Origin: Cryomorphaceae bacterium
GTDB lineage: Bacteria > Bacteroidota > Bacteroidia > Flavobacteriales_D > SKUL01
Assembly (NCBI GenBank): GCA_007695365.1
Contig: REDV01000060.1
Coordinates: forward strand, 1-55,962
DNA length: 55,962 nucleotides
Direction of reading: 5' to 3'
The notes beneath the pieces are model-generated. The model saw only the letters and a program-made list of their open reading frames with translations, made no database searches and was not told the DNA's origin. Of the stretch, positions 1 through 17,600 are shown one piece after another; the stretch's first letter is position 1, and every line of letters begins with the position of its first letter. Both the position numbers and the translations under genes were made by a program.

Positions 1-75
1 AGGGCTCAAACGCAGTTAGGTTCCTGAGGGGAGCGAAGGGCTGCAAGTGCGTTTGAGCCTTAGATGTTGTGGGTA
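1..75 (-). other. attC-like recombination site, partial (site C)
   Basis: Seen: a perfect 12-bp inverted repeat (3-14 with 48-59) around a loop of about 33 nt. Read on the minus strand it is preceded by ACCCACAAC (67-75), only 4 bp after the nuclease stop codon. That box is the exact complement of the first bases of the same cassette (1794-1803), as expected for the R'' box of a cassette's own attC. The distal R' box would lie outside the window, so the site is truncated. Inference: 3' recombination site of the nuclease cassette. Confidence 0.6.
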
Positions 76-79
76 GTTC

Positions 80-1777
80 TTATTCCCAAATCTCCTGTTT
101 AATTGTCGAAAGCTTTTCATTTTTAAGGTGCTCAGTGGCCCTGAAAACATCTCTTTGTTCAATTTCCTCTTGCGTCTGCCTTTTAATGGATTTCAAAAGC
201 TTCTTTCCAATGCTGAGTTTAACCCTATCTGTATTAAAACTATCTAAGCAGTTTGTACTAATTCGTCCATTGTTAACTCTAGGTCCACCCCTGTATTGTT
301 CGGTCAATGCAAGCTGTGTCATGTGATTAATGTAGGTCTCCATAGACTTCACTCTATTTTCTTCAATTGCAGCCTGAAGTATCTGATTATATCTTTCATC
401 AGTTAATTCGGGGAAGATGGATTGTAAATGGTCCTTGTTCAAAAAGTTTGATTCAATATCAGTTCCTGCAGTGAAAAATATATCCAACCCAGCATCACTT
501 GCCTTTTGAGCTATATCACGCTTTTCATCTTCACTTAAATAATCTGAATCCCTATGTATTATAATTCGAGCATTGGGAGCATGCTTTTTGATAAAAGCGG
601 CCAAAACAACAGCAGTATCCAATTTTGAACAACCATCATAAGCCCAAACATCAGTTTCATCAAGGTTAAATTCATTTGCCATGAGAATAGCTTTTAATGG
701 TTTAGTGATTGAGTCCTCCGTCAATACAATACACTTAATATTGCCATTATTCAAGAAGTCACCCTTATCTAATGCACCAATTTCCAATAGGACTTTGACA
801 AAATTGTAATCTTCTTCGCTCAATTTTCCATCAACTATCCAATGAACCTCAGCTACCTCTTGAAAAGAATCAAGCAGGTGTCTTGAGTGGGTACTTAAAA
901 TGATTTGAAACCCTAATTCTGTTGTTAGTTCATGAAGTTTTCCGGCTATGATTTTCTGATTTTGTGGATGTAAATGACTGTCGGGTTCATCAAGAATCAA
1001 AAATTTGGGTCTGTACAAATGCAAGTATGAAAGAATCTGAATTGTCTGAAGTACGCCAGTGCCGTAAGTGTCAATTGGCAGATTCAAATCTCCTTTGATA
1101 ATATAAACATCAATGTTGTCGTCCCTTCTTGGGTTAAATGAAATTTCTATAGATATATCTGGGAAAATATCATTGAGATCTTCATGAAATGCGCTCCACT
1201 TCTCCGCATTTTGTGACAAAATCAATAGGATATTTCTAAAAACACTGTTTGCGTTTCCCTTAGCAGCAGTTTTTCTAACTATACCTTCGCTTTTAAACTG
1301 CTCAAAAGCTGCAATTCCTGCTAACCCTGGAACATAAATTGAAAATGGACTTTCAATGTTTCGGATTTGTTGTCCTAGCGCTTGTCCATCAATTGCTACA
1401 AGAAGATTTTTATTGCGGCCTTTTCTGAGTGTGAATTCTGCGGTTTCATTTGAATCAGATTCTGTAAACTTAACGAGAATAGCTTCTTCAACTTTCTGAC
1501 TTAGAGACCCGCCATTCCCCAGCGTGTAAATATCGTTGGTAGGTGTGTACAATATTTGTTCCGGAGTCAATGATGTTGAGAGCCTATCATTTTTCCAATT
1601 TGTTCTTCGAAATTCAGCAAGTGATGTAGTTTGAGCAATTGAAATCGAAAACTGAATAGCTTGTAAAATTGAACTTTTTCCAGCATTATTACCCCCAACC
1701 AAAACATTTATATTGTCAAGTCTAAGCTCGAGTTCTTCGATATTCTTAAACCTTGATATTTCAATCTTATCTATCAT
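80..1777 (-). CDS. OLD-family ATP-dependent nuclease (ABC-type ATPase with TOPRIM domain)
   Basis: Predicted DNA-targeting ATPase/nuclease of 565 aa. The N-terminal ABC/SMC-like ATPase has a P-loop GGNNAGKSS at about residues 28-36, Walker B LILDEPDSHLHP at about 260-271 and an H-loop STHSRH near 295. A TOPRIM domain follows, with its acidic Glu in LTEDS (about 354), HRDSD (about 408-412) and DIESN (about 440). This order and length match the OLD family, including GajA of the Gabija anti-phage system. I chose the ATG at 1777; an in-frame TTG at 1792 would add five residues before the conserved start. The gene is AT-rich and alone in its cassette, following a helicase cassette. Known for the family: nucleotide-regulated nicking or cleavage of DNA. 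A defence role here is inferred. Confidence 0.8.
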   Translation of the reverse strand: MIDKIEISRFKNIEELELRLDNINVLVGGNNAGKSSILQAIQFSISIAQTTSLAEFRRTNWKNDRLSTSLTPEQILYTPTNDIYTLGNGGSLSQKVEEAILVKFTESDSNETAEFTLRKGRNKNLLVAIDGQALGQQIRNIESPFSIYVPGLAGIAAFEQFKSEGIVRKTAAKGNANSVFRNILLILSQNAEKWSAFHEDLNDIFPDISIEISFNPRRDDNIDVYIIKGDLNLPIDTYGTGVLQTIQILSYLHLYRPKFLILDEPDSHLHPQNQKIIAGKLHELTTELGFQIILSTHSRHLLDSFQEVAEVHWIVDGKLSEEDYNFVKVLLEIGALDKGDFLNNGNIKCIVLTEDSITKPLKAILMANEFNLDETDVWAYDGCSKLDTAVVLAAFIKKHAPNARIIIHRDSDYLSEDEKRDIAQKASDAGLDIFFTAGTDIESNFLNKDHLQSIFPELTDERYNQILQAAIEENRVKSMETYINHMTQLALTEQYRGGPRVNNGRISTNCLDSFNTDRVKLSIGKKLLKSIKRQTQEEIEQRDVFRATEHLKNEKLSTIKQEIWE

Positions 1778-1793
1778 TTGTGTCTTTTTCAAT

Positions 1794-1929
1794 TACCCAC
1801 AACGGCTCTGTATAAAAAACGTAGGGCTTTCGGAGCACTTTCCTGTCAGCCGAGCAGGAAGTTCATTAAGAGCACTAAACTCTTTGCAACCCTTGTCCGC
1901 CCTATGTTTTCTATACTTTGTTAGCGGCA
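1794..1929 (-). other. attC-like recombination site between helicase and nuclease cassettes (site B)
   Basis: Seen: a long imperfect palindrome. Read on the minus strand it opens with TGCCGCTAAC (1929-1920), runs through arms containing ACATAGGGC and GCCCTACGT that pair across a structured loop of about 70 nt, and closes with GTTGTGGGTA (1803-1794). The arms pair with a few unpaired bases, like the extrahelical bases of attC sites. The opening box complements the start of the helicase cassette (4650-4641), and the closing box matches the start of the nuclease cassette. Each half therefore belongs to the cassette it should. Confidence 0.65.
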
Positions 1930-4649
1930 TACCCTTTTTTGTTTTTTCAATTTACCCATTCTTGATAGTCACAACCGTACAAGAAATTTGAGCAACCATA
2001 AAAAGCCCATTGTTTTCCGTTCTTAGTCCCGCTTCTTTTAACAAGGTCTGCGGTTACACATCGTGGACATTTCTTTATCAATGAATTGTCACTTTCTAAT
2101 TCCAATTCTGAGATGAACTTTGATTTGTATGAACTGTCTGCAACGAAAAAAACGTTTTCTTTAGCTCTGGTCATTGCAACATAAAACAGTCGTCTTTCTT
2201 CTCCATTTTCAAATTGGTCAGCTTCACTTAGCAGTAGGTTTAATACATTGTCATCTGACATTTCAGAAGGGAATCCATGCTTCCCTGAATTGCAATTTAT
2301 GATAATAACTATATCTGCTTCAAGTCCCTTCGCTTTATGAACCGACAGGAATTGAGCCTGTATGGTTCTCGTTTCTCCTTCTTCTGTTTTTACGTTGTAT
2401 GAAAGTGTTCCACTTTCCTTGTTAATCCGAAAAACGTGATGTTCATTTTTTACTCTGTCAATATCAAAATTATACCTACCCAAAATAAATATTTCCTTGC
2501 TTTCAATATTATCGGTCGTTTCTAATAGTTTATCAAAAATTTGTTTTAGAGCAAAAGTATCGTCTTGATTGTCAGTGACAGAATAATGAATTTCATAGTA
2601 AGTTTTGCCCAAATTGGATTTACCCTTTAGTTCCTTTCTTGCTTGGTTAGGGTTCTTTTGAATGAACTCACTGGAAAGATTTACTAACGGATTGTGAAAA
2701 CGATAAGTAGTTTCAATTTTGGATTTAACTGTGTACCCAAAGTAATTCTCAAACTCTTTGAATAGGGCAATATCACTACCACTAAATCGGTAGATTGATT
2801 GCCAATCATCACCAACACAGAATAATTTGCAGGCTGGATTATTATTTTTTATTGCTTTGACGAGTTGATACCTGCCAATGGAAATATCTTGAAACTCATC
2901 AATTATCACATAACCAAAGGTTCTGTTGTAACTTCCAATAGTAAGATAGCTTGATGCCTTATTAATCATATCGCTAAAATCAATTTCATTTCTTTCGGCT
3001 AATCGATTTTCATAGCGTTCAAAAATCGGCTCAATGATTTTAATGAATAAATCATTTCTCCTCTTTTGAAAATTGTCTTGGGTTTGTCCGTTTTTATTAA
3101 TTACGTCCTTGATTGTATAGCTGTTGGATTTCATTAATGTTATAAAGGTTTGAAACAAAGCAATAAAGCTGCTAACTTCTTCTTGTGCTGCTTCATTTAT
3201 TATTTCCCATATTTCTCTTGGTGATTTAGGTTTTAAGGTTATGCCCGCTTCAATTAAATTTTTAGTTAGATTTTCAAATAGACTGTCTTCCGACATTTCA
3301 TAGCTGAAAGTTTCAATCAATGAAGTACCATATCTTTCGTGCATTTTTCTTGCCCATTCTATTTTGTCCCAATATTTATCTTTCGCTTCTTCTTGAGTTT
3401 CTCCGTCTTTTGCGAACCAATGAGGGACATCACCGTTCCTTGAAACGCCAAAATGTTCTATATATACCTTTCTTCCGTTTTGAATTATGGTAAAATCGGG
3501 CTTGTATTGTCTGTATGCTCGTGTAGCCGTATCGTGTTCGTATGGATATTCATATTCGTAGTTGATACTATTAAATAAAAGGAAGTTTGCAATCCGGCAT
3601 TCTTCAATACTTTTTACGACTTCCATCTTGTAAGTTGTTCTGCCTCTTACTGGAATTTCTTTGACTTTATATGTTCTAAAATTCTGGTCTTTGAGGTATT
3701 GAACGTAATCACCTTGATTTTCAAATTCAAACTGCGACTTAGTTGGCTTTAAAAAATCAGTAAAGTATTGCGTTACTTGTTGCAAGTAACTTTCGTTTTG
3801 AATTAATTCTTTGAAATACTTGGTAAGTAGTGGCCTGAACTGGCTTTCATCAAAAATACTCGGCTGTTTTCCTTCAACTTCAGCAATGACGTCTTTGCCG
3901 AATTTATGAAATGTTTTTGCTTCAACTCCATCAATATCTATTCTGTCTGCAAGAGTAGAAGCTGATTTATTGGTAAAAGAGATAAGCAAAATTTCTTCCG
4001 GGGCAATTTTGTAACGGTCAATTACATAATTCACTTTTCCAACTATGGTTGTTGTTTTCCCGGAACCTGCACCCGCTATTACAATATTGTTGTCCTCATC
4101 CGTTACTATTGCCGTTCTTTGTTGTGTGTCAAGTTTCCTCCCTTCAATATTGTCAAAAAATCGATCGTAATTCTTTAATTCATCTTTTACAAATTGTTTA
4201 TTGAAGTCGTTGCGAAAGGTTTTGGCATTTTTGAAATAATTCTGAAAAGTCTTTATCGTCTGAACTTCTGTATCCGACAATCCAATTTTTTCGTAGGGTT
4301 TGTCTTTGATTTCATTAAAAAGGGTGGCCTGCTTGTTTGTCCAAACAGTTAAAGGATAGTTAGCAAAATAGCCGTTTTGAAAGTCAAGATGTTTTGAAAA
4401 CAGGTCAACTGATGATTTTATACTGTCGAGTTTTGAAGTGAAAAAATCAAAGAGGCGTTGTCTTGCAGCCTCTCTTTCTCTGGCTAATTTTTCTTCAAGT
4501 TCTTTTTTCTTTCGCTTTTTCTCCTTGTCCCACCGATAGAGTAAAAGTCCTCCGACAAAAAGTACTACTATTATTATAAATCCTGTGATAATTTTCATTT
4601 GTCATTCTTGATTTCAAGATAGCAGTAAGTTTCTTTGGGTTGCCGCTAA
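1803..4649 (-). mobile_element. Integron-like gene cassette carrying the UvrD/HelD-type helicase
   Basis: One minus-strand gene is bounded by perfect complementary 10-bp boxes, TGCCGCTAAC at 4641-4650 and GTTAGCGGCA at 1920-1929. Taking the G/TT crossover rule of integrons, the mobile unit would run from 4649 down to 1803 and include site B as its own attC. There is a leader of about 50 bp before the gene, and the stop codon is 17 bp from the attC box. No integrase, attI or transposase is visible, so this may be an array without a linked integrase. Confidence 0.55.
1947..4598 (-). CDS. Membrane-anchored helicase IV-like (HelD/UvrD superfamily 1) helicase with nuclease-like insert and zinc finger
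   Basis: Predicted superfamily 1 DNA helicase, 883 aa. Order: a transmembrane segment at residues 5-21 followed by a charged coiled coil (about 24-50); motif I GAGSGKTTT near 175; motif II IDEFQD (566-571); motif III VGDDWQSIYRFSG (595-607), the signature of E. coli helicase IV; motif V near 750; motif VI YVAMTRA near 806. Between motifs Ia and II lies an insert with KPDFTI (366-371) and YIEHFG (379-384), resembling a degenerate PD-(D/E)XK fold. The C-terminus has four cysteines (844, 847, 869, 876) like a topoisomerase zinc finger. It starts at ATG 4598 and is alone in its cassette, upstream of the OLD nuclease. Helicase identity is firm; a defence function is inferred from the neighbour. 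Confidence 0.85.
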   Translation of the reverse strand: MKIITGFIIIVVLFVGGLLLYRWDKEKKRKKKELEEKLAREREAARQRLFDFFTSKLDSIKSSVDLFSKHLDFQNGYFANYPLTVWTNKQATLFNEIKDKPYEKIGLSDTEVQTIKTFQNYFKNAKTFRNDFNKQFVKDELKNYDRFFDNIEGRKLDTQQRTAIVTDEDNNIVIAGAGSGKTTTIVGKVNYVIDRYKIAPEEILLISFTNKSASTLADRIDIDGVEAKTFHKFGKDVIAEVEGKQPSIFDESQFRPLLTKYFKELIQNESYLQQVTQYFTDFLKPTKSQFEFENQGDYVQYLKDQNFRTYKVKEIPVRGRTTYKMEVVKSIEECRIANFLLFNSINYEYEYPYEHDTATRAYRQYKPDFTIIQNGRKVYIEHFGVSRNGDVPHWFAKDGETQEEAKDKYWDKIEWARKMHERYGTSLIETFSYEMSEDSLFENLTKNLIEAGITLKPKSPREIWEIINEAAQEEVSSFIALFQTFITLMKSNSYTIKDVINKNGQTQDNFQKRRNDLFIKIIEPIFERYENRLAERNEIDFSDMINKASSYLTIGSYNRTFGYVIIDEFQDISIGRYQLVKAIKNNNPACKLFCVGDDWQSIYRFSGSDIALFKEFENYFGYTVKSKIETTYRFHNPLVNLSSEFIQKNPNQARKELKGKSNLGKTYYEIHYSVTDNQDDTFALKQIFDKLLETTDNIESKEIFILGRYNFDIDRVKNEHHVFRINKESGTLSYNVKTEEGETRTIQAQFLSVHKAKGLEADIVIIINCNSGKHGFPSEMSDDNVLNLLLSEADQFENGEERRLFYVAMTRAKENVFFVADSSYKSKFISELELESDNSLIKKCPRCVTADLVKRSGTKNGKQWAFYGCSNFLYGCDYQEWVN

Positions 4650-4737
4650 CGTACATATATCCGCAACTTTCCCCCCAAACTTGCGGATATTTCCCATATG
4701 TGCGAAGGAAGGCATGGCTTATATACGTCGTTGGCTC
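4641..4737 (-). other. attC-like site at the leading end of the cassette array (site A)
   Basis: Seen: an imperfect palindrome. Read on the minus strand it starts GAGCCAACG (4737-4729), contains an inner hairpin of ten-base arms (ATATCCGCAA with TTGCGGATAT) and outer arms ACGTATATA with TATATGTACGT, and ends CGTTAGCGGCA. The last box is the start of the helicase cassette. No upstream copy of the complementary box GTTGGCTC occurs before 4990, so this is not the end of a complete preceding cassette. It may be the fixed primary insertion site or a remnant. A promoter abuts it. Confidence 0.55.
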
Positions 4738-4767
4738 AAAGTTATACCTATTTTTTATACTACCAAA
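4737..4767 (-). promoter_or_regulatory. Consensus Bacteroidota promoter reading into the cassette array
   Basis: On the minus strand, TTTG (4767-4764), exactly 19 bases, then TAACTTTG (4744-4737) is a complete match to the Bacteroidota housekeeping promoter (-33 TTTG, -7 TAnnTTTG). Transcription would begin about 7 nt later, inside site A, and run into the helicase cassette. Its position at the leading edge of the array is like that of a cassette promoter (Pc). Confidence 0.6.
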
Positions 4768-4989
4768 TCATCCAGGGGCGAAACAAGCTTCTCGTAGCCT
4801 TTCCGGGTAACATGGCTGTGCAGATCCCGGTAGTACCCATCACGCCCCACACCCACCCATCTCAAATAAGCCCGTTGTTACGGCAAAATACCTCTTTAAC
4901 CTGTGTCCACCCAGAGAGATGCAGGTCTGCGAACCCGTCATCCTCCTCCACAAAAGTTTCGTGATACAGCTCTGAGGAAAGTTTGCTCC
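4738..4989. other. Intergenic stretch between the cassette array and the vitamin operon
   Basis: No convincing gene lies here. Apart from the promoter at its left end it contains a short minus-strand frame (about 4869-4983, ending at a TGA) whose composition looks protein-like but which has no good start and no recognisable domain. It could be a decayed coding remnant. A small hairpin (4973-4978 with 4987-4992) overlaps the stop codon of the upstream gene without a following T-run. Confidence 0.4.
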
Positions 4990-6138
4990 TCAATCCCCCC
5001 TCACCAACCCCACCAGCGCCATCATGGCACTTTGGTTTCTTTCTTTCCGGGTGCCGGATATTTCTACCACAGGGCGGTCTTTGAGCAGGGCGCGGTATTG
5101 CTCAAAAAGCTCGTCGCGGCGGTGCGGGTCCTCGCGCAGGGGGTCTTCCTCGTAGGGAATATCAGGACGGCACAGCAGGTACAACACGGGCGTAAACTGC
5201 TCGTGCATGGCGCGCAATGCGGGTGGCTCGGGCCCCAGCTTGTCGCGGTGCCAAAGCAACACCACCTCCGGACCGGTATCGCTGATGGCAAACAAGGCGG
5301 CGCGTTGGGAGCTTTGCCGGATGGCCTCAAGCTGCATACGCGCAATGTTCACCAGGTCATCAGAGGTATAGGGCTGCTCCAGCTGCTCCAGGTAAGCGCG
5401 GGCCTGTTCTTCGGCCCAGGGCTGAAACGTAGCCTTCGACAAATCTTTGGCAAGGGTGGTTTTGCCCGAACATTCCGGACCGGTAATCACCACCACGGGC
5501 TTCGGGTCGCCGTGGTTCTCCGGTTCCTCCGGCTCCGGCAGCGGCTCCTGCGCGCGGTACTCCTTTCGCCACTGTACAAATCCGTAGGCGGCCATACCGG
5601 TATAAAGCAGCATCAGCAGGGCAAAGTAATCCAGTCCGCGGGTGTAGTACAACCACACCGAAAGCGCGTCAATGGCTATCCAGTAAATCCAGTTGCTGAG
5701 CACCTTGCGCGCCACCATAAAGGTTGCCGCAATGCTGAAAGTGGTGGTCATGGCGTCGGCAAAGGGCAGCTCGGCGTCGGTCAGCTCGCTCAACAAACTG
5801 AACAAGCCAATACCGGCAATGCCCGAAACCACGATGAGCAACACGTGCCTGTCGGTTCGCCACTCCACAATGCGAAAGTTACCGTCGTCGCCCCGGGCTT
5901 TGCTCCACTGCCACCAGCCGTACACCGCCATCACCACATAAAACAGGTACAAGGCAGACTCCGCGTAGAGTTTCACGGTAAAAAACAGCACCACGCTGAT
6001 GGCCGAAGCCAGTCCGCCAAACAGCCAGCACCAGATGCTGCGCCGGGCGGCCAGAAAAACGTAGAGCAGCGAAAACACCACGGCTGCCTGCTCCATTTGA
6101 GGCGCCCATTCTTCCATCAGCTCCAGCAGCGGCCGCAT
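4990..6138 (-). CDS. PnuC/PnuT-family vitamin transporter fused to a NadR-like kinase domain
   Basis: Fusion protein, 382 aa. Residues about 15-190 form a multi-pass PnuC-family membrane domain, with the aromatic motif YGWWQW near 73-78. After an acidic linker (about 198-212), residues 214-382 form a P-loop kinase like the ribosylnicotinamide kinase of NadR, with GPECSGKT at 220-227, DTGPEVVLLW (Walker B region) and a lid with DPHRRDELFEQY. Known: PnuC facilitates diffusion of nicotinamide riboside, and the kinase traps it as the phosphate. The start codon overlaps the stop of a thiamine-binding-type gene (TGATG), which raises the alternative that the substrate is thiamine (PnuT). It is the last gene of the ribF operon. 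Fold assignment is firm; substrate is uncertain. Confidence 0.8.
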   Translation of the reverse strand: MRPLLELMEEWAPQMEQAAVVFSLLYVFLAARRSIWCWLFGGLASAISVVLFFTVKLYAESALYLFYVVMAVYGWWQWSKARGDDGNFRIVEWRTDRHVLLIVVSGIAGIGLFSLLSELTDAELPFADAMTTTFSIAATFMVARKVLSNWIYWIAIDALSVWLYYTRGLDYFALLMLLYTGMAAYGFVQWRKEYRAQEPLPEPEEPENHGDPKPVVVITGPECSGKTTLAKDLSKATFQPWAEEQARAYLEQLEQPYTSDDLVNIARMQLEAIRQSSQRAALFAISDTGPEVVLLWHRDKLGPEPPALRAMHEQFTPVLYLLCRPDIPYEEDPLREDPHRRDELFEQYRALLKDRPVVEISGTRKERNQSAMMALVGLVRGD

Positions 6139-6401: not shown

Positions 6402-6992
6402 TTAACGGCAATCGCAGGGAGCCGAAAAATGAAAATTTACATTGGGCAGCGCCTCTTTGAGCCAGCTCTGCTCGTCGCGATCTACCTCTACCATGCGCAA
6501 ATCCACTTCGCGCAGGGAGCTCATTTTTTCAATCGCCACAGGAAAGCGGCTCACCCGGGTACTCCACAAATCAAGCACTTCGAGTTTTTGCATGTTCACC
6601 ATTTCGTCGGGCAGCCGCGAAATGGGGTTTTTCCCCAGCTTGAGAATCCGCAATTGGGGCAGGCCAATAACCTCCTCCGGAAAACGCTCCAGCTTGTTTT
6701 GGGTGAGGTCTAATTTTTCAAGATGCACCAGCGCCGAAATTTCCGCCGGAATTTGGGTGATTTTGCCTTTTTTCAGGGTAAGGCTCCGGAGGTTGGTAAG
6801 GGTGAACACCTCCGGGGGAATTTCACCCTTTTTCACATTGAGGCGCAGGTAGTACACCGCGTCGGGGTCGCGAAGGGCTTCCTGCAAACTCCTGAATTCA
6901 TAGTCGTAATCCTGCTGCAGGTCTTCAATAAACTGCGCCCGTGAGCCGGTAGCCATCAGCAGTAAAAACGCTATGGTCAGGAAGTTTTTCAT
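6402..6992 (-). CDS. Secreted leucine-rich repeat protein
   Basis: 196 aa with an N-terminal signal peptide ending near residue 19 (SRAQ). Residues about 45-165 carry leucine-rich repeats of the bacterial type, seen as repeated LxxLxLxxNxIxxLP units (for example LEKLDLTQNKLERFP and LRILKLGKNPISRLP). A short cysteine-containing tail (CDC) ends the protein, and there is no sorting domain. LRR proteins mediate protein-protein contacts; no specific partner can be named. Its ATG overlaps the ribF stop codon (ATGA), so it is co-translated with a flavin enzyme, an odd pairing. Confidence 0.75.
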   Translation of the reverse strand: MKNFLTIAFLLLMATGSRAQFIEDLQQDYDYEFRSLQEALRDPDAVYYLRLNVKKGEIPPEVFTLTNLRSLTLKKGKITQIPAEISALVHLEKLDLTQNKLERFPEEVIGLPQLRILKLGKNPISRLPDEMVNMQKLEVLDLWSTRVSRFPVAIEKMSSLREVDLRMVEVDRDEQSWLKEALPNVNFHFSAPCDCR

Positions 6993-11617: not shown

Positions 11618-14600
11618 CTATTGCGAAAGTGTGAACCGGAGGCTCAGACCTGCATTGATGTTACTGGTGGGGAATGTGATGGTGGTTCGGGGCTGGTTCA
11701 CCATTTGGTCGTAAAACGCTCGCACCGTTAATGCTCTACTAATCAGGTAATCGGCTGCTACTTTAATGGAGATTACTTTTTGACCGGAGGTCACGAGGTT
11801 GGTCATCTCAACCATTCTGCGGGTAATCATCAGGTTGTCGCGGATGGACAAATCTACGCGGAGGGTGAGGTCGCTCTTGGGTTTCTTGCCCCCCACTTCA
11901 AAGGGTAATTGCACTTGCTGAAAGGTATAACCAATGCCCGCTACGTACTCTTCGCCGCGTATTTCGGTAACCTGGTAGTTGGCTGTACTGAGTGCGAGAT
12001 TTCGGTCTTTGCGCCATTCAAGCTTGGCGTTGAGTGAGTTGTTAAGCGTGATATCGAATCCGACCAACGGTGCGAACTGCTCTGTGATGGTAATAATGTT
12101 GATTTGTGTTTCGTGAATAAAGCTCTGCTCTTCGCTGCGGTCGCGGATGGGCGCCCCTTCGGCGGTGAGTTCAAATGCGGGGTTAGAGGTGTAACCACCG
12201 ACGGTAAGGTTGGAGCGGTATCCGTGGTTGAGCGTTACGGTGCGGAAAATTTTCTTGAGGGCCTTGATTTTGGACAATCCGTCGTAGTTAAAGTTCCAGT
12301 TGGGGTTCATCAAAGCGTCCAGAACAGAGTAATTGAGCGGATTAAGTGGCACCTCTTCAACCGATTGGCCCGTATATGCAGCGAGGAAGGCCGGAATAAC
12401 CACATCCTGCTGGGTGGGCCCGTATCCGTCGGGGAATTCTGCTCTGTCGAAAACGGGGTTGCTGAAATCACTTTGAGCCGCCAGTCGGTTAGCCACATCC
12501 CATCGGTTAAACACAAACTGGTCGAACACGTCGTTCTGGAAGTTTTCGCCATCGCGAATAAACGCTGTTCGGATGGGCAAATACGTCATGCTGAAGTTTC
12601 CCATCTTCTGGTAGGAGTCGCCCAGGTAATCCTGTAAGTCCTGGTTAAATCGGTATTTTTCCGTTGTGTTCTCAGAAATCATCCTGCTGGCCGTCACCTC
12701 GATACGCATGTTGGGTAGCGGCTCCAGGTTTACGCGCATGTTAAAGTCTTCGTTGTAATTGCGTGTTGTGGGTTCCTGCACAAAGGGATTGTCAACCAGC
12801 CAGCCCCTGCGCCCGGCATTTTGTATGAAGTTTTCATCCTGTAAACCAAAAATAAAGGCAGCCCCCGGTGCTTGGAATTGGTTATCCATACCCATCATGG
12901 TGGTTGAGCGCCCATAGCCCGGTACATAGGTACCTTCATTCACGGCGTACCGCACGTTCACATTCTTCACCGTCATGATAAGCTTGGCCCCGTAATCCCA
13001 TGGCCTTAACCGATTGGGATCCTTGTTTTTATCCTTGTCCTTATCATCCTCTTTTGGTTGGGGGGCACCCGGCCGTTGGGGCCCACCACGGCCACCTCCG
13101 GCCTGGCTTTGTGCCCTGAACTTCTGGTTCACTTTTTTGAAGTAGCCCACCTTGTTGTACAGCGAAAGGAAATTAAACTGGTGGTTGATAGAGACGTTCA
13201 TGCTGTTCTGGATGTTGTTACCCAGGGTATCCTGGGCCAGCGGTGCCCGTTGCCAGTTGTAGGTACCGGTATAGCGCACATCAGATGTCATCCAGTCAGT
13301 GAGGGGAAGCTTATCGAGCGGAAGTTTGTACGATAGATTGAACGCGTGGTTGTAATCCATGGTTTCACCAAAGTTCCGCACACTGCTCCATACGCTGTCT
13401 CGCCACAGTTGATACTCATCCTCGAACGACCTGTTTACCCTGCCCGGCGTTTCACCCACAATAGCCTGGTTGGTGGCCATAAAAGACACCCTTAGTTTGT
13501 TGGTGATGTCGTATGAGAGCTCGTAGTTTCTGAGCCAGTTAAAGGTTTTGGTGTACAGCTCGGGTTGAGGAAAGTTCGTGATCTGGGTGTTGTTGCGCAG
13601 CAGCATTTCGTTGTAGGAGCGATCTACATCTGTTCGGAAAGCCAGTTGTTTGGGACCGAGATTGATGTTGAAATCTTTGATCAGGGCCAAAAAGGGCGAA
13701 GACCTGAAAAACTTACTCTTGGCAAATGGCTTCCAGTTGGTTGGCTGATTCATATACGTATAAGCAAGCGAAGCCCGGTGGTTTCTCGTGGTGTTGTGCT
13801 GCACCTGTGCCGAGCGCATGTAAATCTCGCTGTAGCTGTAGGTTGCGGTCAGGTTTTCGATATCCCAGGGTTGTGGGTCTTTTTGGTTGTCGGGATTGCG
13901 CTCTTTCCGCACGTTGGTAAAGTTGATGCTTCGCCGTTGTTGATAATCCTGCACCCGCCTTCGCCGTTCCCTGGCCACGTCGCGGTCAAGGGTGGCCGCT
14001 ACCTCGGTTTGCTCAATATCGGGTGCAAGGGGGTCGAAACGCGGATCAGACACCTGCTCGGAATAACCGAGGTACATGGGGATTTTCACGTTGGCACCAT
14101 CGGGCAGGAGCTTACCCAATTCGAGGTTGGTTGAAATATCAAACCCGCGAGTGGTTTCCTGCTGCCTTTCCTGAACACGGCTTTCGAGGCCGCCAAAACC
14201 CGGGGTGCTGTAGTTACCGGATATGGCCACGTTACCGAGGTCGGCAAGCTTGGCACTTATCTGGCCTTGCAAGGCCCAACCCCCGGAGTTATCAAAGTCT
14301 GTCATGCGCAACTCATTCACCCATATTTCCGCACATTTGGGCAAGCCATCGTCGGTTTTCCAGGGGTTGGCGCGTGGGCCGTCTCGCTTGGGGTTTCGCA
14401 CCCCAATCATAATCATACGCACGTTGCTCAACACGGGATTTCCCACCACCGTCATCCTTCGGTCCCCATCGTTGCCGTAAAATGGAATGTTGTTGGCCGG
14501 GTGAATGCCGGTAACTACTTCATTGTCTCGCTGAAGCTTGAGCTGGAGCAGGAGGTCAAGCTCAATATCCATTTCATTTTCCTCGGGCCAAACTTCCCTC

Positions 14601-17600
14601 GGGTTTGCTATCTGATCATTCAGAGAATTGAAATCTGTGGGTAATACGGGAACCTCGTACTCGTAGAAGTTCTGGTCAAAATCGGAACCCAGACGAATAA
14701 ACACGGAGAGATCTCCAAACTCAATGGGGTCGTCCAAATCGAGCGACTCTCCGTGAATAAACATTTTGAGTCGCTTGTAAAGGCGCATGTCCACCTGGGT
14801 GGTTCGGAATGCCGCACGGGCATCTCCATCTTCCAGTCCACACACAATCAGTGCCAGAGATTGCTCATTGAGGTTGCGCAGGTTGGCAGACCCGAGGTCA
14901 ATCTGCTGTTCAATACCGGGGGGCAGCACATAGTTCACCGGCCTTCTGTCACCGTTTTCCTCAATGTTCACCGCGCCCACGTCAAATACTGTTTCGGGGT
15001 TTTCATTTACCGGCCCCTCCACCCCTTCGGAGAGGCTCATCATGTAGCGTCGCCACTCACCGCGAATCAGCTCCAGGCGCGCAAAACGCAGCACGGTGGG
15101 GTTTTCCCACTCGCGCATTACCAGGCGCATAAAACGGATGGAGCGGAAGTCTTGTATGTTCACCCTTCGGTTAAAACCCTGCACCGGCACCTTGAACTGA
15201 TACCAGGTCACTTCACGGTCATCGGAACCTCTGGTAACCAACTTATCGGTAATAAAATTGGAGCCGATCTGCATCAGGGGGTGATCGGGTGGTTGAAATT
15301 CGATGGCGTATTCAAAATAAGCTTCTGATGCATCGAGGGTCAAATCCTGGTTTACGTCTTCGGTAGAGGGCAAGGTAGTGGCCAGCGTAGGATAGGGTTC
15401 CGGAGCGTCCTGGGTTGACACCGAGTTCCCTTCCAATCCGTTGAATCGCTTGTAGCGCTCAAGGATATCCGGCGGGTTGATCACTTCGTTCTCGTAGGTG
15501 TTGTTGCGAAAGTAGAGGTAGTCGTCGTTGGCGGGGTCATTGAAAGCGCGTTGAAAAGCAGCGGGAGTTAAAAAGCCTTGAAGCTGGTTGAGATAGTTGC
15601 TGAAGTGACTGCGTTCATCGGGGAGCCCATCGCGCTGGTTGGGCAGTCCGTCGAGACCAACGTCCTGGGTTGCGTTTGAGTTGGTGGTATTGTCAAAGGC
15701 GTTTACAATACTCTGGGAAAGCGGCACACGGCCCCAGTTGGTGTAGGTGGTCACCAATCCGCCCCCGTCGTCGGATCCATCCACGGGCAACCCGTTTTCA
15801 AAGCTCATCAGTCCATCTCGAAGAATGTCCTCAGAAATGTTACCGAGGTGGATATAGAGCTTACCACCCGGGGTGGTTCCCAGAAATTCCTCCGCGTCTT
15901 CGTTAAACGGATCCATCACCCAGAACTGCACAAATTCGATGTTGGCCTGCTCAAAGTCGGTAGTGGTGAGGCTCCGCATAATACCACCCCACCGGCTGGC
16001 CGGGTCAATCAAAGAACCATCGGGGTTAATACCCGCCGAATACGCCGAACCTCCGGGCACGTCGAAGTTGTACTGACCACGTTCACTGGGGTAAAAGGCC
16101 ATGTCGAGCGTAGGAATATTGGTGGGCATACCCGCGGGGAGCTGCCTGTTGGGAAACACCTCCCGCTCAAGCACCTGGCGCTGGTAGTGCCGCAATGGGA
16201 AAATATTGTCAGGAGTTTGGGGGTCGTTTCGGTAAAAGAGCGGGTCCACAATGTGCCAACCTATGTGAGCGCGGTTGTAACCAGCCACCAAACTATCTAC
16301 AAACATAGCTTCGGGGTAGTCGGGGCTGAATTGCGGCGGACTCGCGATAGACCACGCGATAAAGTTCCGTAGGTCAATACGGCTCTGGCTGCCTTCAAAG
16401 TCATCAATGTAGGCGTTACCCTCGCTACCCACAGCGCGTGAGTGACCCGGAATCAGGTGGGCAAATTCTCCCGACATGTTGATGCTGGAGACTTCCTTGG
16501 TATTGACCAGCGGAATGGCATCAATCATTTTGGTGAGCACATTGGATTCCGTGCTGTAATTACCATCCAGACCCCAAATGGTGTTTCGCACGGGCTCATC
16601 GCCAATGTTTACCTTTTGAGTGAGCGGCCGTTCGTAGAGGTGCATCAGGGTACCTCCAAGGTGAAACTTGTCGTTGAACCGGTATTCAAACCTTTGCCCG
16701 AGGAGGGTTTTGGTTTGGATACTAAAGAGCGTATTGCTCTCAAGCTGAATTTTAATGGGCGTTTTAGACTCTAGAAGCCCGGAGTTGAGGATGCGTACAC
16801 GCCCCATGTTGTAATCCACGGTATAATCCACGTTTTCCTGCAGCATCACACCACCGGCGGTTACGGTCACCGAACCTTGCGGAATGTTCAGCGCGTTGAG
16901 CGAAATTTCATCGGATGATGCACTTTGGTAGGTACCCTGTATGGTAAAACGGTTTACCCCGGGCATAAGCTGAGCGGCTATTTTTGACGAGTCGTAAAGT
17001 GCCTGAAAAACAACCTGTTGCCTGACGGCCTCCGGCACACCCCTTTCTTCCATGGCTTGATCGAGCGTGGTACCGAATGGCTCAATGGTGGTGAAATAGA
17101 CTCTACCATTTGCCGAGTTGATGGTTCCCCCCTGTGTGGCGGCAAAATCAACAAAGTCGAATCGCCCGTCGGGGATGGCGGCGCCGTTTACGTCAATTCG
17201 GTCGAGGCCCAAAAGTTGCACCAGCGGCAAATCCTCTACCCCAGCCTGCGGTATCATGGGGATGTTGATACCCTCGGTGGGGTCATCGTACCAGATGTTG
17301 AGGATAAAGTCCTGCGGGTTGATCTGATAGGCTCCGATGGAGTACACGTTTTTCATCATCAGGTCCCACAGCGGAATGAACACGTTTGTGAGTGATGACT
17401 TGAGCAGTTTTGCAAAGAGGGCGTTGGCACCGGTGACCCCGTCGGTTGAGAGGTCTCCTACCTGGTAACGCTGGCCATCGAGAAAGTACTCGTAAGAAAC
17501 AGCAAGGCGCTCATCATTGTTAAGCGCCTGGTTCAAAGAGATAAATCCGAGTTTTGAGTTGTAGGTGAATTCGTTCTCGGTAAGACGTCGGGCATTGGCG

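Follow-up and report, generated by a model that had tools for sequence, protein, structure and literature searches.

Organization of the left contig end

The window analysed here is the whole contig C60 (55,962 nucleotides) of a 154-contig Bacteroidota genome bin. SprA, a Bacteroidota motility/secretion protein, is encoded in it. Read in gene orientation (minus strand), its left end presents a PnuC-like NMN transporter fusion, an integrase relic, a promoter-like motif, a hairpin site (site B), a helicase gene, a second site (site A), an OLD-type ATPase gene and a third site (site C), followed by the contig end. The transporter gene (4990–6138, minus strand) encodes one 382-aa protein, in which an NMN transporter (PnuC) is fused to an AAA_28 kinase-like domain.

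The helicase gene (1947–4598, minus strand) encodes an 883-aa UvrD/helicase-IV-like protein with a Zn-ribbon and an N-terminal hydrophobic segment. It matches Pfam UvrD-helicase at 1.6e-41, and its score of 360 bits against the NCBIfam model for DNA helicase IV lies below the cut-off. The second gene (80–1792, minus strand) encodes a 570-aa OLD-family AAA ATPase (Pfam AAA_15, 3.4e-22; AAA_21, 6.3e-21), the C-terminal part of which we read as TOPRIM-like. This protein gives PADLOC matches of the NsnB/Old/GajA type. Homologues of the helicase with 50–68% identity are found in five other genomes, where they have no flanking boxes and do not lie in cassettes, which gives no support for mobility of the helicase cassette. 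A search for the OLD ATPase in 295 genomes returned distant matches only.

Both genes are bounded by perfect 10-bp complementary pairs, as the first-pass annotation had described. GTTAGCGGCA (1920–1929) pairs with TGCCGCTAAC (4641–4650) around the helicase gene, and GTTGTGGGTA (66–75) pairs with TACCCACAAC (1794–1803) around the ATPase gene. Each of the two cassettes follows the rule that its start is the complement of its own R'' box: cassette 1 (1920–4650, minus strand) starts with GTTAGCGGCA and has TGCCGCTAAC as R'', and cassette 2 (66–1803, minus strand) starts with GTTGTGGGTA and has TACCCACAAC. The two stand in tandem and run in the same direction.

The junctions had also been noted as palindromic, and on folding all three form hairpins. 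Site A (1794–1929, minus strand), the attC of cassette 1, consists of the R'' box TGCCGCTAAC, an L stem GTATAGAAAAC.TAGGGC and the R' box GTTGTGGGTA. Its stem has 18 positions with one mismatch and an ungapped score of 35.5, to which a bulge adds 0. Site C (1–75, minus strand), the attC of cassette 2, breaks off with the contig immediately ahead of R' and forms a 12-bp perfect stem (z −4.5). At site B the minus-strand fold of the junction 4641–4740 beats 199 of 200 shuffles (z −2.5). The three sites differ from each other in sequence and length, which counts against an integron reading. An Rfam search of the junctions found no attC family and gave chance matches only.

A single 10-bp pair by itself would say little in a stretch of 56 kb. 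A chain consists of a GTTxxxxxxx start and a downstream reverse complement ending in AAC, with an AAC-hairpin-GTT site adjoining each end. Cassette 1, on the minus strand of the window, reaches a chain score of 51. In the controls, the highest scores are 40 for 1.55 Mb of reversed sequence of the same genome and 37 for the window after Markov shuffling (60 shuffles). At a strict 20-point stem threshold the chain of the window goes undetected, and the threshold was then loosened, with controls. The observed list of the control scan covered the plus strand only, and the minus-strand chain of the window is therefore not listed in it.

Integrase relic, promoter-like motif and first site

No integrase had been seen in the first reading of this region. 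A deleted integrase is nevertheless present at 4991–4755 (minus strand), directly upstream of the first site. The intact integrase of a same-genus genome, G001, served as reference for the relic and for site B. The 5' flank and first codons of the relic (4948–4991, minus strand) are 75% identical over 56 bp to the corresponding region of the G001 integrase. Its C-terminal end (4755–4826, minus strand), which closes with DLHSHVTRKGYEKLVSPLDDLVV and the stop, shares 61% of its amino acids with the G001 integrase over 23 codons (tblastn 1e-7). These final codons read DLHSHVTRKGYEKLVSPLDDLVV in the relic versus EIYTHITQKGFEKIVSPLDDLAV in G001, and the position of the catalytic tyrosine is not a tyrosine in the relic. 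At the DNA level, window positions 4834–4658 match the last codons and the 3' flank of the G001 gene with 79% identity over 177 bp (E 2e-40). Since both ends of the integrase gene are matched, at 4991–4948 and at 4834–4658, the gene has been deleted internally. We do not claim the G001 locus as an ortholog of the window locus, as the G001 integrase does not adjoin the NMN transporter gene.

The 3' match continues into site B (4641–4738, minus strand), and site B is thus the attI-like site of the deleted integrase. It is built of the R'' box GAGCCAAC, a hairpin and the R' box GTTAGCGGCA. This junction had been taken as one more ordinary attC; its palindromic nature stands, and its assignment changes to an attI-like first site homologous to the G001 integrase flank.

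A motif TTTG-N19-TAACTTTG lies at 4737–4767 (minus strand), in the old integrase end. It resembles a Bacteroidota promoter and, in a Pc-like position, would read into the array. It is the sole match in the window, where 0.28 matches are expected, and it is weak taken alone. G001 keeps both promoter boxes and the spacing, as TTTG-N19-TATCTTTG.

Related sites and an intact integrase on other contigs

Copies of site C are found elsewhere in the genome, at C128:10152 and C128:11943 (86–90% identical) and at C139:7440. The hairpin is kept among them and the R'' box varies (TACCCACAAC, GACCGCTAAC, CGTCCGCACAAC), as expected if every cassette supplies its own R''. In the C128 cassette whose R'' is CGTCCGCACAAC, the start GTTGTGGGACG matches this box apart from one missing base. 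The second C128 cassette starts with TTATCGGTC, a near match to its own R'' GACCGCTAAC. For the copy at C139:7440 there is no clear match between R'' and the cassette start, and the box rule is imperfect or failing for some C128 and C139 cassettes. In a scan of part of the contigs of this genome, no further strict two-site chain rose above the controls.

The 3' end of a group II intron (C128 11584–11659, minus strand; Rfam 62.3 bits) lies directly before the cassette start TTATCGGTC. This placement recalls the group IIC-attC introns that target integron sites.

The first-pass annotation had proposed to seek an integron-type tyrosine recombinase in the genome. Contig C28 encodes an intact 386-aa integrase of the same family. 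It lies 137 bp from the contig end, and it is followed near that end by GTTATAGCCAAT, which resembles the first-cassette starts of relatives. The other two tyrosine recombinases of the genome are its Xer proteins by size and placement.

A second dispersed repeat (C128, C139, C150, C41 and C126) was considered as an attC and rejected, as it folds differently; it may be a gene fragment. The repeat is about 100 bp long, reads as a protein fragment (HNPQLFIAYVAQRFGLLKDAEKMG) and often has CGTTA at its end. Its copies lie at 6894, 8025 and 8459 of L154 (C139), 10210 and 10607 of L176, 17 and 1577 of L175, 9855 and 13907 of L143 (C128), and 13138 of L177, several of them at contig ends. On C139 (L154), a type I restriction HsdR gene (6761–812, minus strand) and neighbouring minus-strand ORFs begin right after a copy of this repeat, at GTTATCGGTC.

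Arrays behind the integrase in related genomes

Of 120 genomes of the order, about 60 encode proteins of this integrase family (E about 1e-37 or better). A search for box-bounded genes in other Bacteroidota genomes had been proposed, and in relatives arrays under the same box rule directly follow integrases of this family. In eight relatives a palindrome ending in GTT lies 42–50 bp past the integrase stop; in others it is less clear or farther off. The 428 kb downstream of the relatives' integrases contain 35 rule-obeying chains, versus one in the reversed sequence and none in Markov shuffles.

The clearest numbers come from the complete genome G378, with at least 18 cassettes in 20 kb and attC sites of about 155 bp. 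The longest ORFs are co-directional with the integrase in 16 of the 18, and the 10-bp rule is exact in 12 cassettes. Long intervals that fail the rule probably conceal missed sites. Plasmids of Rufibacter tibetensis and Chryseobacterium sp. SNU WT5 have the same layout of integrase, site and array. On the latter plasmid (L265), two very similar attC-like sites (13230–13364 and 15611–15745) flank an IS110 insertion, and each of them holds a longer inner palindrome (GTTGGGAAAAATCG...).

Contigs tend to break off shortly beyond the 3' end of the integrase. This 3' end is at most 400 bp from the contig start in 11 of 38 minus-strand matches, and the 5' end is equally close in 0 of 29 plus-strand matches. 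The integrase gene was also considered as a cassette of its own, which was rejected for want of a convincing box pair.

Structure of the attC sites

For 17 aligned attC sites of G378, the R and L stems emerge from an unguided RNAalifold prediction, and 98.5% of cells are paired. Five of the eight L pairs are changed on both sides. The covariation score of the alignment is matched by none of 500 shuffles. When the partner strand is slid in the alignment, all double changes are lost. MAFFT aligns these divergent palindromic sites poorly.

Class 1 attC stems need one bulged (extrahelical) base. The gain in stem score from one bulge has a median of 13.5 in class 1 attC, versus 2.25 in G378 and 0.5 (median) in 49 family sites picked by the 10-bp rule and a stem filter. 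The gain is below 5 in about three quarters of the 49; site B and several others do gain, and bulge-free hairpins are therefore only a tendency of this class. The structure of the IntI complex solved by MacDonald 2006 reportedly shows the IntI-specific insertion touching the bulged bases.

The integrase family

The integrases keep the catalytic pattern and the SP(L/F)D tail, as in IntI. The IntI-specific insertion is missing in all of those aligned, with a 33-column gap against IntI1 and a shorter following segment. The C28 integrase scores 172 bits against TIGR02249, for which the curated integron-integrase cut-off is 265 bits. None of 60 relatives passes this cut-off. In the tree, four canonical IntI form a clade at 100/99 that does not contain the present integrases, and IntI and the present integrases together stand apart from Xer at 100/99. 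The sequences thus place them as tyrosine integrases related to IntI, outside the IntI clade.

Tyrosine recombinases about 35% identical to them, in Rhizobium and Chryseobacterium oryzae, adjoin IS91-family transposases with no cassette array seen; the integrase family therefore also has members outside integrons. The G001 integrase (L008, 579-aa open frame) and L012 3479–4639 have an N-terminal extension of at least about 110 aa with the motif ARWS...K.WHV. This extension gives no confident Pfam match and is seemingly repeated in G001.

According to a survey of tyrosine recombinases, the insertion is incompletely conserved in the integron-like subgroup, although integron function depends on it (PMC8138268). 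It is likewise called necessary in PMC9668308. On sequence grounds, the present system resembles an integron in layout but fails one defining feature, the IntI-specific insertion. The missing insertion could be linked to the missing bulge.

Discussion

Our analysis strongly favours the left contig end as the cassette array of a chromosomal integron, whose own integrase was deleted internally with both gene ends left by the first site; recombination itself we infer. The integron reading of the first-pass annotation is borne out by copies of the site with other R'' boxes, by a same-family integrase in the genome and by arrays behind the integrase in relatives. That the sites would form a Bacteroidota-specific class was also proposed there. 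This part holds for the integrase and for the mostly bulge-free hairpins; the boxes as a distinguishing mark fall away in the main, as R' still begins with GTTA or GTTG. We consider it likely, with somewhat less confidence than the local reading, that Bacteroidota have their own integron class, spread over many chromosomes and plasmids, in which insertion-less integrases would act on a palindromic attI and on mostly bulge-free attC.

In such a system, a cassette would extend from the GTT start to the hairpin that follows its R'' box. If it acts as in integrons, the integrase would cut between G and TT by the R' box on the folded site, and excised cassettes would circularize and be reinserted at the first site. 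The first cassettes may be driven by the promoter-like motif that lies in the integrase remnant, and the C28 integrase may still serve the sites in trans.

The same locus could be an ordinary CALIN, with standard attC cassettes placed by a canonical IntI and another role for the insertion-less recombinase. CALINs are common (PMC9024848). The GTTA/GTTG cores of R' and the AAC/GTT layout are common to known attC, and relatives of the recombinase adjoin IS91 transposases. However, the first site and the array directly follow the insertion-less recombinase in many genomes, and the homology of the window's first site is to the flank of this recombinase rather than to that of an IntI. The lack of a canonical IntI over the cut-off in the 60 relatives and the lack, in most sites, of the bulge needed by class 1 sites also argue against a CALIN, which we regard as improbable. 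The perfect inverted pair around each gene, together with the dispersed repeats on the same contigs, could suggest insertion sequences or MITEs, each gene then forming a small transposon between 10-bp terminal repeats of its own. But the pairs vary by gene, abut shared hairpins, follow a head-to-tail chain rule and come after an integrase, and neither cassette gene of the window is a transposase; this origin is very unlikely.

Modules of the pdif type, moved by XerC/XerD, also depend on tyrosine recombinase chemistry, and in them too short inverted sites flank single genes. Here the sites are foldable R/L hairpins with a variable middle, a uniform orientation and a cassette-specific R'', and the linked integrase is not XerC/D, from which it separates at 100/99 support, so that pdif modules deserve just as little credence as small transposons. 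Intergenic hairpins are common, and palindromes arisen by chance, or transcription terminators, could in principle give a similar picture where two genes have nothing to do with each other. The chance of this is close to nil, given a chain score above every control, homologous sites that recur with other R'' boxes, and a relic and first site that match an integrase flank.

In the open-access papers searched we found no description of the integron class favoured here; subscription papers and preprints were outside the search, so its novelty is provisional. In the 2022 survey of complete genomes with IntegronFinder 2.0, the sole complete Bacteroidetes integron is in Salinibacter ruber (PMC9024848), and Bacteroidota are not among the taxa for which specific attC models were made (PMC8352920). 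Integron surveys find integrases via the IntI-specific domain, and because of this reliance arrays of the present class would go uncounted, being missed or left as orphan attC clusters. If the arrays recombine, gene capture that standard tools do not count, plasmids included, takes place in a phylum of central importance to communities in gut, soil and water. The joint absence of insertion and bulge would, if true, mean a different mode of reading the folded site. The class offers a direct test of which integrase and attC parts are truly required for folded-DNA recombination.

The cargo of the window recalls Gabija, which consists of the OLD nuclease GajA and the helicase GajB. An OLD-type ATPase and a UvrD-type helicase are likewise paired here, and PADLOC models of GajA and GajB match. 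In contrast to Gabija, the window helicase is larger and helicase-IV-like, the two genes lie in separate cassettes, and the gene order is reversed. NsnB and RTasHel are the best PADLOC matches, ahead of the GajA and GajB models, and we do not claim the gene pair as Gabija.

As to integrons proper, the class 1 system (IntI1) has the same R' box, GTTR, and its cassette rule is mostly 7–12 bp in known cassettes; the 10-bp rule is thus not peculiar to the present class. The sedentary chromosomal integrons and CALINs (IntI, attI, attC; e.g., the Vibrio superintegron) share the GTT start, the complementary R'' end and an attC hairpin made up of R and L arms with unpaired spacers. They also share tandem, mostly co-directional cassettes and the SPLD-type integrase tail, and arrays that have no working integrase exist among them. 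The direction of reading differs, as the present cassettes run with the integrase, whereas class 1 Pc and PintI point opposite ways (PMC8876359). Compared with the sedentary chromosomal integrons, the integrases described here have no IntI-specific insertion and are not part of the IntI clade. The first site, too, is a palindrome and is located at the 3' end of the integrase, and the extrahelical base required by class 1 sites is absent from most attC.
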